Shown here in pieces: positions 54,575-60,266 of a stretch of DNA of 64,000 nucleotides (its first letter is position 1; every line of letters begins with the position of its first letter). Position numbers and translations under genes: made by a program. Source of the stretch: an uncultured Prevotella sp. (GTDB lineage Bacteria > Bacteroidota > Bacteroidia > Bacteroidales > Bacteroidaceae). The DNA lies in contig CAKPZJ010000008.1 of the NCBI GenBank assembly GCA_934204655.1, positions 1 through 64,000 of the forward strand. Direction: 5' to 3'. The notes beneath the pieces are model-generated. The model was not told where the DNA came from, made no database searches, and saw nothing but the letters and a program-made list of their open reading frames with translations.

Positions 54575-55750
54575 CTACTTCATATAGCGTATGGGTAGGT
54601 CTACGATGCCCTGCGGGGCAGGTGCCGGCGTGGCTGCCCTGCTGGCGGCGCGCAGTCGCTGCTTGGGCCCGGGTATGAGCGGACTGTTGTACAGCACCCT
54701 GCGCATACGTGCCTTCTGCTGGGCAGTGAACTGGAAGCCGTAAGTAAACGAGTAGTCCATAAGATTGGTCGCAGAGAAACTGTTGCCTGCCGCATCTGTA
54801 CGCTCAGTAAGCCTACGGAGCGATACACTGCCATCCTTGGCACTGTTAATATAGGCCGTAAGGTCGGCCAGATAGGCGGTGCGGTTATAGGTAGGCGTAT
54901 CGGTACAATAGTCGGTGTCGGGGCAGGGGTCGGTATTGCCCTCGGCAGGCTCGGCAAAGACATGGAGCAGGCCCAGGTAGTGGCCCAGTTCGTGAGCCAA
55001 GGTGATATTGGCATCATACATGAGCTGCTGGATGGTGCCCGACTTGATATTATGGTCCTCATTGGCATAGCGGTCGCTCTCGTAGTCCAGGTACAGGCTG
55101 TTGATGGACGAGCAGTAGGCAAACCCGAGGTTGGCCTTGGTGATATTGGCCTTGGCTGCATCCAGGGCGGTCAGGCCATCGGTCTCGTTGATGCCTGTCA
55201 GCACAAAGGGCAGATGGCTGATGCCCAGCGTGGTGCCATTGTCGCCTGCCTCGGTAGCAAAGTTATACACCATCACGTTAATGAAGTCGTTTGGCTCCCA
55301 CAGATACTTGACATACTCCTTGTGATTGCCCATAAAATCGCTCGGGCCGATAGGGTAAGCGCCGTCCCACTTGACGTACTCCACACCGGGAGTACTGAGC
55401 TTGTTACCGCGTTCATCGTGGGTAGCCAGGACGAAGTTGACCCTGATGTTCTCACTGCTCCCAATGTCGGTGCTGTACAGGCCGCCCTGGTAGAGATGGT
55501 TTACATGCTTCAAGAGAGTGGCCAGGCGCGTGGCGCTGACATACTGCTTGGGGTCGGCAGCGTTCTTATAGAGTACATGGAATATCACGGGCAACCGGTA
55601 GGTATAGCTCTCGTCGAGAGTGGCCGTGGTGTTGTCATCATCTTGGTCTACCTCCTTCGTGGGAGGGGTTGCTGGGTCGTCCTTGTCCGAACAGGCGACC
55701 ATGCCTAACAGGGTTACGATGGCCAATAGAGCCAGAAACGTTTTGCGCAT
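54575..55750 (-). CDS. Zinc metalloprotease lipoprotein (M43/BF0631-like)
   Basis: A 391-residue exported lipoprotein protease. The lipobox LLGMVAC (Cys20) follows MRKTFLALLAIVTLL; the 34-residue upstream extension of the frame is rejected. The metzincin site is HELGHYLGLLH, followed by VFAEPAEGNTDPCPDTDYCT with the cysteines and NP/DTPT pattern of M43 peptidases, and the Met-turn ATNLMDYSF. The layout fits the Bacteroidetes zinc-dependent metalloproteinase lipoprotein family named after BF0631. Substrate unknown. It has a consensus promoter about 180 bases upstream. Confidence 0.9.
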   Translation of the reverse strand: MRKTFLALLAIVTLLGMVACSDKDDPATPPTKEVDQDDDNTTATLDESYTYRLPVIFHVLYKNAADPKQYVSATRLATLLKHVNHLYQGGLYSTDIGSSENIRVNFVLATHDERGNKLSTPGVEYVKWDGAYPIGPSDFMGNHKEYVKYLWEPNDFINVMVYNFATEAGDNGTTLGISHLPFVLTGINETDGLTALDAAKANITKANLGFAYCSSINSLYLDYESDRYANEDHNIKSGTIQQLMYDANITLAHELGHYLGLLHVFAEPAEGNTDPCPDTDYCTDTPTYNRTAYLADLTAYINSAKDGSVSLRRLTERTDAAGNSFSATNLMDYSFTYGFQFTAQQKARMRRVLYNSPLIPGPKQRLRAASRAATPAPAPQGIVDLPIRYMK

Positions 55751-55930
55751 ATCTTTCCTTTTTACCGGGGCGGCCATGGACGAGGCCATGGGTACATCGC
55801 CCACCTTATTATATATATAGGCAACTCGCCAGACGGCCATGACTGGCCCCATAGGGCCGACAGCCAGCAGGGATGCTACTGGCGCACGCCCTGCAAGGGC
55901 CCCGACGGCTGGGATGGTACCTACTGTTTA

Positions 55931-56008: not shown

Positions 56009-57901
56009 CTACGCCCATTTGAGGCGCAGGCTGTTGAGCACCACGCTCACGCTGCTCATGGCCATAAGGGCGCTGGCCCACATGGGGGTTATCTGGAAGT
56101 CGGTAACGGCATAGAGGGCGCCGGCGGCCAACGGTATGCACACAATGTTGTACACAAAGGCCCAGAAGAGGTTCTGGTGTATCATGCCCACCGTCTGGCG
56201 CGACAGGGTCACGGCATCGGCTATACGGCGCAGGTCGGTGCCCATGAGCGTAACCTGGGCCACGTCGATGGCCACATCGGTGCCACGGCCCATGGCTATG
56301 CTCACGTCGGCGGCAGCCAACGCCTGGCTGTCATTGATGCCGTCGCCCACCATGGCCACATGGTGCCCGTCGGCCTGGAGCGTCCGCACCAGGTCCTCCT
56401 TGTCCTGTGGCAGCACCCGGCTTCTCCAGTGGCCTATGCCCACCTGCTTGGCCCAGTAGCTCACGGCCTCGTCGCGGTCGCCGCTCATCAGGTAGACGGC
56501 TATGCCGGCCCGCTGCAACCGGGCGATGGCCTCGGCGGCATGGGGCTTGAGCGCCTCGCGCTCAGTGATGGCCATGTCGGCCGTAGCGCCCTCACGGGGC
56601 AGGGTCAGGGTACCCGTCTTGTCTATCACCATGGCATCTATGCGCCGCATGTTCTCCAGGGCGGTGGCATCGCGTACCAGGATGCCTTCCTGGGCGGCGC
56701 GCCCTATGCCCACCATGAGGGCAGTAGGCGTGGCCAGGCCCATGGCACATGGGCAGGCGATGACCAGTACCGACACGGCCGACAGGATGGCGCGGGGGAG
56801 CTGGGCGGTGCCGCCCAAGGCCAGCCAGAGCACCAAGGTGAGGAGCGACAGCACGAAGACCGCAGGCACGAAGATGGCCGCGAGGCGGTCTACCACGCGC
56901 AGGACGGGTGCCTTGGAGCCCTGGGCCTGCTGCACGGCGCGTATGATGTGGGCCAGCATGGTCTGGCTGCCCACCTGCTCGGCCTTGAAGCGCAGGGCAC
57001 CCTGGCGGACCATCGTGCCGCTTAACACGCGGTCGGCGGGGTGTTTCTGTATCAGTTCGGGCTCGCCGCTTATCATGCTCTCGTCTACATAGGCCGTGGC
57101 GGTGCCCCAGTCCACCACGCTGCCGTCTACCGGCAGTTTCTCGCCGGCGCGCACCTCTATCAGGTCGCCCACTTGCAGGGCCTTGAGGGGTATGTCGGTC
57201 ACACCGTCGGCGGTAACCACATGGGCCGTGCGCGGGGCCAGCTGCATCAGCGACCGGATGGCCGTGGCCGTGCTGCGCTTGGCGCGCTCCTCTAACAGGC
57301 GGCCGGTAAGCACAAAGGCCAATATCATCACCGTAGCGTCATAGTAGGTATGCCACGTCAGGCCGGCGGCTGCCCAGAAGCTGTCGCCCCAGAAAGTATT
57401 GAACACGCTGAACGCGAAGGATATGAGGGTACTCATGGCCACTAAGGTGTCCATGTTGGCTGCGCCGTGGGTAAGTTGTCGCCAGGCCGAGGTGTAGAAC
57501 TGTCGGCCACACCACACCATGGCCGCAGCGGCCAGCAGCATCATGGTCTGGTTGGCCATGTCGGCACTGCCCAAGTGTACCCACCCCATGCTAATGGCCA
57601 TGGTGAGCACGGCCAGAACCCAGGCCAGAACCATCCGCCGCAGCAACAGGCGATAGGCGCGCCGTTCTATTTGTTCCACATTGCGGTCGTCCTCGATGAC
57701 CATGTCGTAGCCCACGCCGCTCAGGGCCTCCTTCATGGCCTGGGGCGAGGTGCGGGCGGGGTCGTAGGTTACCAGCACCGTGCGGGCGGCCAGGTTTACA
57801 TTGGCCTGGGCCACTCCGTCTATCTCGCGGAGGCGCCGCTCTACATTGGCGGCACATCCGGCACACATCATGCCTAATACGGCTATTGTCCTTGTTTCCA
57901 T
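56009..57901 (-). CDS. copA: Copper-type P1B ATPase lacking the nucleotide-binding domain
   Basis: A 630-residue heavy-metal P-type ATPase. From METRT the order is: HMA domain with GMMCAGCAANV; eight membrane helices; actuator domain (YVDESMISGEPELI); TM6 metal site ACPCAMGLATP; phosphorylation motif VIDKTGTLT (Asp427); P-domain LMSGDRDEAV (Asp475) and VAMVGDGINDSQALAAAD; TM7 FVYNIVCIPLAAG and TM8 MSSVSVVLNSLRL. CPC, YN and MxxSS together mark Cu(I)/Ag(I) exporters. Only about 40 residues separate DKTGTLT from LMSGD, where CopA proteins normally have about 140; the ATP-binding N-domain with its HP motif is absent. The frame is open and composition normal, so this is not a simple frameshift. 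The start at 57901 avoids an 11-residue unsupported extension. The upstream gene is an HMA-AraC regulator. Confidence 0.9.
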   Translation of the reverse strand: METRTIAVLGMMCAGCAANVERRLREIDGVAQANVNLAARTVLVTYDPARTSPQAMKEALSGVGYDMVIEDDRNVEQIERRAYRLLLRRMVLAWVLAVLTMAISMGWVHLGSADMANQTMMLLAAAAMVWCGRQFYTSAWRQLTHGAANMDTLVAMSTLISFAFSVFNTFWGDSFWAAAGLTWHTYYDATVMILAFVLTGRLLEERAKRSTATAIRSLMQLAPRTAHVVTADGVTDIPLKALQVGDLIEVRAGEKLPVDGSVVDWGTATAYVDESMISGEPELIQKHPADRVLSGTMVRQGALRFKAEQVGSQTMLAHIIRAVQQAQGSKAPVLRVVDRLAAIFVPAVFVLSLLTLVLWLALGGTAQLPRAILSAVSVLVIACPCAMGLATPTALMVGIGRAAQEGILVRDATALENMRRIDAMVIDKTGTLTLPREGATADMAITEREALKPHAAEAIARLQRAGIAVYLMSGDRDEAVSYWAKQVGIGHWRSRVLPQDKEDLVRTLQADGHHVAMVGDGINDSQALAAADVSIAMGRGTDVAIDVAQVTLMGTDLRRIADAVTLSRQTVGMIHQNLFWAFVYNIVCIPLAAGALYAVTDFQITPMWASALMAMSSVSVVLNSLRLKWA

Positions 57902-58279: not shown

Positions 58280-58846
58280 TTACAACTGGTCTAATGGTTG
58301 CCGCGGCTGTGTCTGCTGGGCCTTGTACTGGGTGGGGGTCAGTCCCGTAATGCTCTTGAACTGCGCGCTGAGATAGGCTGTACTCGAATAGTGCATTTGC
58401 AGGGCTATCTCTGACAGCGTGAGCTGTCCGTACTGCAGCAGTTCCTTGACACGCTCGATGCGCTGATGGATATAGTAGCGCTCGATGGTGGTGCCGGTAA
58501 CCTCGGAGAATACCCTGCTGGCCGAGGCGTAGTCGCAGTGGGCAAGGCGGGTAATATTGGCCGACAGGTTGGTAGCGGGGTCTTCCTGGCCATGATGTAC
58601 CATCTGGACAATAGCGGTACGGATACGCTCGGCGGTCTGCTGTCGCTGCTCGTCTATCAGTTCAAAGCCGGCCTGGGCCAACAGCTCGCGCAGGGTGGCT
58701 ATGGCGGCATCCGTGGGAACGCCCTGCACCCGCACACAGCCCAACTGGACAGACAGCGGAACCATTCCAGCCTGTCGCAAGATGGCCGCGACGGAAGCTA
58801 TGCAGCGGTCGCACACCATATTCTTAATGATAAATGTCGTATCCAT
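58280..58846 (-). CDS. HMA-domain/AraC-type fusion transcriptional regulator
   Basis: A 188-residue regulator with two parts. Residues 1-65 form an HMA-like ferredoxin fold with the metal-binding Cys pair in IIKNMVCDRCIASV (Cys12 and Cys15). Residues about 95-180 are an AraC-family DNA-binding domain: LAHCDYASASRVFSEVTGTT, YYIHQRIERVKELLQYGQLT, LSEIALQMHYSSTAYLSAQF and KSITGLTPTQYK. Beside the copper ATPase gene, in the same direction, it is best read as a Cu-sensing regulator of it (inference). Similar fusions are, as I recall, common but little studied in Bacteroidetes. Its leader consists of three 64-bp repeats below a consensus promoter at 59060-59090. Confidence 0.88.
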   Translation of the reverse strand: MDTTFIIKNMVCDRCIASVAAILRQAGMVPLSVQLGCVRVQGVPTDAAIATLRELLAQAGFELIDEQRQQTAERIRTAIVQMVHHGQEDPATNLSANITRLAHCDYASASRVFSEVTGTTIERYYIHQRIERVKELLQYGQLTLSEIALQMHYSSTAYLSAQFKSITGLTPTQYKAQQTQPRQPLDQL

Positions 58847-59374: not shown

Positions 59375-60031
59375 ATGACCACTAAACGCAAGTTCAATCT
59401 CTATTGCATCTTACTTCTTGCAGCCGTGGTCTTCTCTCTCTTCACGGCTGCCCAGAAGTTTGTCGCGGGCTTCAGCCAAGGCTGGAATGTCGCCACCATC
59501 GAAATGCAGCGCAGTGCCGGAACGGCCAACTACGAGGCATACGAGCTAACCCTGCAGGCCAATGACCCCAGACGGTGCGAGCTGGCCCTTACCAACACCG
59601 CCACGGGCAAGACCGACTCGCTGCGGGTAAGCCAGGCCATGGCCTGGGTAGCTACCAGCCAGCGCCCCACCGAGAGCCTGCCGGTAATAGTGGGCAAGAT
59701 GGTACTCATAGCCCTCGTGCCACTGTGCTTCATAGCCTTCTGGGTGGTATTCATACGCTTGGTATGGGCCGTGAACCGCGGCGAGGACTTCGGCACATCG
59801 ACTACCCGTCGGCTGCGCCTCATGGGCTGGCTGCTCATCGGTCTGTACGCAAGCGAATGGATATTCCACCTCATCACGCTGCCGCCAGCCATCAGCTACG
59901 AGGGCTACCGGGTGAGTTCGCCAGCGGACACCGACCCCATGCTGCTGGTCTCGGGCATCGGCCTGTTGGTGGTGGGCCAGCTCTTTGCCGTGGGCCAGCG
60001 TATGAAGGAAGAAAACGAACTGACCATCTGA
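59375..60031 (+). CDS. DUF2975 membrane protein
   Basis: A 218-residue integral membrane protein with four hydrophobic helices (about 9-30, 108-130, 150-172 and 185-208) in the DUF2975 arrangement. Residues about 35-100 form a soluble loop between the first two helices (TANYEAYELTLQANDPRRCE). WVVFIRLVWAVNRGEDFGTS, a typical DUF2975 segment, precedes the third helix. It is followed after 16 bases by an Xre/YozG-type regulator, the usual partner. The function of DUF2975 is not known; regulation by the partner through the flanking palindromes is likely. Confidence 0.88.
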   Translation: MTTKRKFNLYCILLLAAVVFSLFTAAQKFVAGFSQGWNVATIEMQRSAGTANYEAYELTLQANDPRRCELALTNTATGKTDSLRVSQAMAWVATSQRPTESLPVIVGKMVLIALVPLCFIAFWVVFIRLVWAVNRGEDFGTSTTRRLRLMGWLLIGLYASEWIFHLITLPPAISYEGYRVSSPADTDPMLLVSGIGLLVVGQLFAVGQRMKEENELTI

Positions 60032-60047
60032 TAACTCCACGCACGAT

Positions 60048-60266
60048 ATGGCAATCAGAGTAAATGTAGACGTAGTAATGGCGCAGCGCAAGATGTCGTC
60101 GGGCGAACTGGCCGAACGGGTGGGCATCACCCCGGCCAACCTGTCGATACTGAAGACGGGCAAGGCCAAGGCTATCAGGTTCTCGACGTTAGAGGCGATA
60201 TGCCAGGCGCTACACTGTCAGCCTGGCGACATATTGGAATACGTGCCCGACAGCGACAACGGCTGA
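60048..60266 (+). CDS. Xre/YozG-type helix-turn-helix regulator
   Basis: A 72-residue DNA-binding protein consisting of one HTH domain: VNVDVVMAQRKMSSGELAER, VGITPANLSILKTGKAKAIR, then FSTLEAICQALHCQPGDILE. This is the short Cro/CI form (YozG, YdcN-like) typically paired with DUF2975 genes. It probably represses its own operon by binding the TATCG-N5-CGATA sites (inference). No other domain is present. Confidence 0.92.
   Translation: MAIRVNVDVVMAQRKMSSGELAERVGITPANLSILKTGKAKAIRFSTLEAICQALHCQPGDILEYVPDSDNG

Follow-up and report, generated by a model that had tools for sequence, protein, structure and literature searches.

Can a P-type copper pump dispense with the domain that holds its ATP? 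P-type pumps bind ATP mainly through their N-domain, which delivers the γ-phosphate to the aspartate of the P-domain, and to our knowledge this domain is regarded as a constant component of the P-type ATPases. The question is raised by a copA gene in a 64,000-nucleotide stretch of contig CAKPZJ010000008.1 from an uncultured Prevotella sp. (the window). There, an uninterrupted open reading frame on the minus strand, from an ATG at 57901 to a stop at 56009, encodes a protein of 630 amino acids. An initial annotation, made from the sequence alone, had recognized the membrane metal sites, actuator motif and phosphorylation site of a Cu(I) exporter and proposed that the ATP-binding N-domain was missing, with an in-frame join that made a frameshift unlikely.

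The segment between DKTGTLT and LMSGD is 37 residues long, close to the 40 or so first estimated, and 92 residues separate Asp427 from Gly519 of GDGIND, compared with 190–199 in 13 full-length relatives of the same family. The Pfam Hydrolase model aligns to the protein solely from model position 91 onward. We then used an N-domain profile, A1, derived from 12 sequences of full-length relatives (segments of 105–114 residues). Among PDB chains it picks out the N-domains of CopA, CopB, ATP7A (Menkes) and ATP7B (Wilson); A1 thus represents the true N-domain, as its hits include the corresponding segment of solved CopA as well as the Wilson and Menkes N-domains solved in isolation. A1 recovered all 13 full-length rows of our alignment at E ≤ 6e-32. 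Nothing was significant in the other 138 rows, including the window protein (best E = 0.044), ruling out relocation of the N-domain elsewhere in the protein, and none of the 120 best listed database homologues scored significantly (best E = 0.099). As judged from sequence, the true absence of the N-domain and a genuine in-frame join are thus confirmed.

Fragments L120 and L133 were excluded before alignment. The 137 short rows contained duplicate genes and were collapsed to 135, among which L132 remains as a cut copy of L121; locus L170, which reads as full length, was missed by the motif filter and is in no count. The features of the window protein, with their retention in these short rows, are as follows.

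56009..57901, minus strand: CopA-type P1B ATPase lacking the N-domain, 630 amino acids (open reading frame, family models)
57704..57889, minus strand: HMA copper-binding domain, residues 5–66, with GMMCAGC (PF00403, E = 1.9e-15)
57062..57070, minus strand: actuator-domain SGE, residues 278–280 (Gly and Glu in 135/135)
56747..56755, minus strand: CPC membrane metal motif, residues 383–385 (135/135)
56609..56623, minus strand: DKTGT phosphorylation motif, residues 427–431, with Asp427 (135/135)
56558..56602, minus strand: stub where other CopA proteins carry the N-domain, residues 434–448 (predicted short flap; length variable in the clade)
56237..56557, minus strand: returning P-domain, residues 449–555, with clade-specific E449 and S473, Lys501 and GDGIND (519–524)
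56147..56152, minus strand: YN membrane metal residues 584–585 (135/135)
56051..56065, minus strand: MxxSS membrane metal residues 613–617 (134/135, the remaining row being cut off)

Structure prediction, one of the checks proposed with the initial annotation, gave a P-domain that is predicted to be intact: short strands at residues 433–435 and 449–451 flank the stub, which forms a short flap, and core strands and helices lie on both sides. By the secondary structure of this model, the protein has a HAD catalytic core with a short flap and no cap domain. In this it resembles HAD phosphatases without a cap, which we take to be the C0 type and which share its Rossmann-like catalytic domain, phosphorylated aspartate and flap in place of a cap; unlike them, it has its catalytic domain coupled to an actuator domain and to a membrane domain for copper transport.

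Pfam and NCBIfam assign HMA, E1-E2 ATPase and HAD hydrolase domains to the protein. The NCBIfam copper-translocating P-type ATPase model TIGR01511 matches it at 503 bits (cut-off 397), and the PRK10671 equivalog model stays below its cut-off (504 versus 1316). Because family models name the protein a normal copper-translocating ATPase, loss of the N-domain can escape notice. The overall fold of the membrane, A and P domains and the motifs CPC, YN, MxxSS, DKTGT, SGE/TGE and GDGxND are common to the short form and CopA-type P1B-1 ATPases (3rfu, 4bbj, 7r0g; human ATP7B), many of which also have an N-terminal HMA domain; identity to 4bbj is 41% over 539 aligned residues. What sets the short form apart is that no N-domain, with its P1B HP motif, is inserted between DKTGT and the remainder of the P-domain. 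Because of this lack, we file the protein, on its sequence features, as a CopA-derived variant rather than a regular member of the P-type superfamily. The HP motif and P1B N-domains are described in PMC5089723.

An assembly, frameshift or annotation artefact would be the simplest account of such a gap. However, the nearest genome, which is independent, has a 97% identical short copy, found also on Prevotella sp. contig L033, and in at least 148 of 299 sampled genomes of the genus (counted by eye) a single match runs unbroken over the deletion site, so chance and misassembly are excluded. The same open-frame form occurs in many independent genomes, including the single-contig genomes G017, G025, G046 and G250. 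We therefore reject a frameshift or misassembly and give an artefact of any kind a negligible probability; the deletion is not limited to one assembly.

How far does the short form extend? The genome samples were confined to the window's phylum. Within the genus, a second look found it in five further genomes (G285, G059, G120, G200 and G281), and G102 carries a full-length CopA instead. The remaining genus genomes, many of them incomplete, mostly gave weaker matches to other ATPases. Among 298 genomes from 22 genera of the family, the listed short forms of the Prevotella type came from the window's genus, two g2 genomes and single genomes of g8, g13 and g22; in genera including g3 and g11 the matches are interrupted at the N-domain, and several of these read as full length. 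In the order sample (295 genomes, E ≤ 1e-80) and the phylum sample (296 genomes, E ≤ 1e-60), the listed matches from outside the window's genus all end at or before residue 490, and therefore none of these reaches GDGIND unbroken. The best 80 loci from named genomes are titled Prevotella, Prevotellaceae, a related genus, Bacteroidaceae or Bacteroidales, and oral species with the short form include Prevotella histicola and P. denticola. By sequence, then, the N-domain-less form is a feature of an entire clade of bacteria from the gut and mouth, made up of Prevotella and its close relatives, rather than of a single gene. The initial annotation was right about the deletion and understated its scope.

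A quick tree of 59 rows (two genes present twice) sets the 45 short rows apart from the others by a single branch, with an SH-aLRT support of 100 and a stem length of 0.85 changes per column; a single loss is therefore enough to explain them. In the simplest case, a common ancestor of Prevotella and its close genera would have lost the N-domain once. A separate short form, L180 from genome G416 of another genus, clusters with three full-length rows, but its long branch leaves the precise position uncertain. The database sequence closest to it, P0122 (99% identical, 40 member sequences), is also a short form, and the other listed relatives of L180 are 817–1065 residues long at 47–51% identity, P0123, the one read, retaining the N-domain. 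That the N-domain was lost a second time, separately, and again with retention of the catalytic residues suggests a viable architecture. The L180 protein also bears a second HMA domain at its C terminus.

A defunct pump would be expected to have lost the domain that holds its ATP, as this protein has, and the protein might now serve as a copper receptor, a chaperone or a stand-alone phosphatase. Against this, all 135 short rows retain the phosphorylated aspartate, the SGE glutamate, Lys501, GDGxND and the membrane copper residues (MxxSS as above), purifying selection on short copA is strong (hand-chosen pairs), and none of 42 genomes tested has a full-length CopA in addition to the short form. 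For these reasons we disfavour a non-pumping role and hold it to be very improbable; of the three options raised initially, nucleotide binding in a new way and use of another phosphoryl donor both stay, and biochemistry decides between them. Over its entire length the protein has just eight positions with a fixed residue that differs from that of full-length forms, and three of these lie in the P-domain. Relative to the 13 full-length relatives, the short clade has D changed to E449 and T to S473, in what are presumably P-domain motifs near the phosphoryl site; these changes may be adaptations to donor recognition by the P-domain alone. Residue 188 (57338–57340), which we take to be the copper-exit carboxylate of CopA, is Asp in 135 of 135 short rows and Glu in 13 of 13 full-length forms.

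The reading we favour, and consider probable, is that of a Cu(I)-exporting P1B ATPase whose N-domain was lost, most simply once, and which would still work through an aspartyl-phosphate cycle. The protein would pump copper and, with the N-domain absent, its P-domain would have to accept the donor directly: Asp427 would be phosphorylated by a donor recognized by the P-domain alone, as in capless HAD phosphatases. This donor could be Mg-ATP gripped solely by its phosphates, with a low affinity that would be acceptable where ATP is millimolar, or else a small molecule such as acetyl phosphate. A more tentative proposal, which we consider rather unlikely, is a P-type pump taken off ATP altogether, with a small metabolite phosphorylating its P-domain; acetyl phosphate would be the candidate, or perhaps pyrophosphate or carbamoyl phosphate. 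If true, fermentation intermediates would directly power copper export in Prevotella.

Several points weigh against a working pump of this kind. All 45 genomes tested have acetate kinase, the three full-length controls included, so its presence does not discriminate. Domain loss could impair coupling between the P and A domains. We found no report of ATP use by a P-type pump lacking its N-domain in the literature searched. Finally, an upstream HMA gene, as found in a crude motif scan, accompanies under half of the short loci with enough flanking sequence (54 of 123).

Might ATP instead be bound at a new adenosine site, on the A-domain, the HMA domain, the stub or a neighbouring protomer? The retained phosphoryl-transfer residues would fit, as would a similar IPNxxxDFTKAD-like stretch in the stubs of many short sequences. 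The stub is not conserved in the clade, however: the gap from DKTGT to ExLKP is 21 residues in 81 of 135 rows and at most 11 in 25, proline/threonine repeats make up some stubs and long low-complexity inserts others, and the window protein's own stub lacks the IPNxxxDFTKAD-like stretch. The small number of fixed differences also speaks against such a site, which we judge unlikely. A new mini N-domain within the stub is ruled out, since 25 of 135 rows have a stub of just 6–11 residues. We likewise rejected the idea that long stubs are what remains of an N-domain: 16 of the 120 best listed homologues have an Asp-to-GDGxND spacing of 115–183, none with a significant A1 score, and the distinct printed segments above 115 look low-complexity; genome G059 has a spacing of 190 without an N-domain score.

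Low-complexity inserts at the site of N-domain loss were seen in L114, L128 (G059), P0009, P0010, P0028, P0033 and P0040. With spacings of 127–190 they are partly repeated internally, and N-domain similarity was not found in them with A1. Separately, in L121 and L132 (genome G200) an in-frame insertion adds about 34 residues to the P-domain directly before LSGD, and its proline-rich pattern resembles a translated palindromic repeat element.

The listings of the literature searched, whose coverage left out most subscription journals, showed no paper on a CopA or other P-type pump without an N-domain, and the portions consulted of a 2023 review of P-type enigmas (PMC10654040) do not mention such a form. 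A copper pump without an N-domain that is maintained by selection across a clade would show that the P and A domains suffice for phosphoryl transfer and coupling. It would make the donor and its affinity directly testable, would provide an unusually small natural P-type pump for studies of mechanism and structure, and would bear on copper handling by abundant gut and oral bacteria.

Could a second gene supply the missing domain? A partner protein might provide the nucleotide-binding part in trans, and small HMA proteins are common neighbours of copA; by name and size, however, they are not N-domain-like, and no conserved neighbour gene family at copA loci fits an N-domain supplier. In 42 short-form genomes, all A1 matches lay in open frames of at least 536 amino acids, the size of P-type ATPases, and reached at most 46 bits (5 of 42 had no match at all), compared with 130–172 bits (E ≤ 1e-37) in three full-length control genomes. 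This search yielded no small stand-alone N-domain frame, although an unrelated fold would escape it. The neighbour survey and the A1 search thus led us to reject an N-domain gene beside copA or elsewhere in the genome, and supply by a partner of any kind seems highly improbable. In the nearest genome, the A1-matching frame is another CPC/DKTGT ATPase with an HP-bearing N-domain, so only CopA is seen without one there.

Upstream of copA, the recurrent neighbour encodes either a small HMA protein or an AraC-HMA regulator and is present at 51 of 139 loci. The corresponding gene in the window lies upstream of copA on the same strand:

58280..58846, minus strand: AraC-type regulator (Pfam HTH_18) with an N-terminal CxxC (KNMVCDRC) HMA-like stretch, the CxxC being read from the translation

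Pfam reports no HMA domain in its product, which by its translated sequence looks like a copper-sensing AraC protein; the gene is likely a copper-responsive partner of copA. Among full-length loci, an upstream HMA or AraC-HMA gene occurs in only 1 of 13, that of G102 (L119) in the same genus. Like the full-length CopA proteins of same-family genera, G102 CopA is homologous to the short form but retains the N-domain; because the same kind of AraC-HMA gene lies upstream, this locus suggests that short and full-length copA play the same part in the genus. Downstream of copA lies a gene for an M43-type (pregnancy-associated plasma protein-A-like) metallopeptidase (54575–55852, minus strand), and at 59375–60266 on the plus strand a DUF2975 membrane protein gene is followed by one for a small Cro/C1-type regulator, apparently as a two-gene unit.
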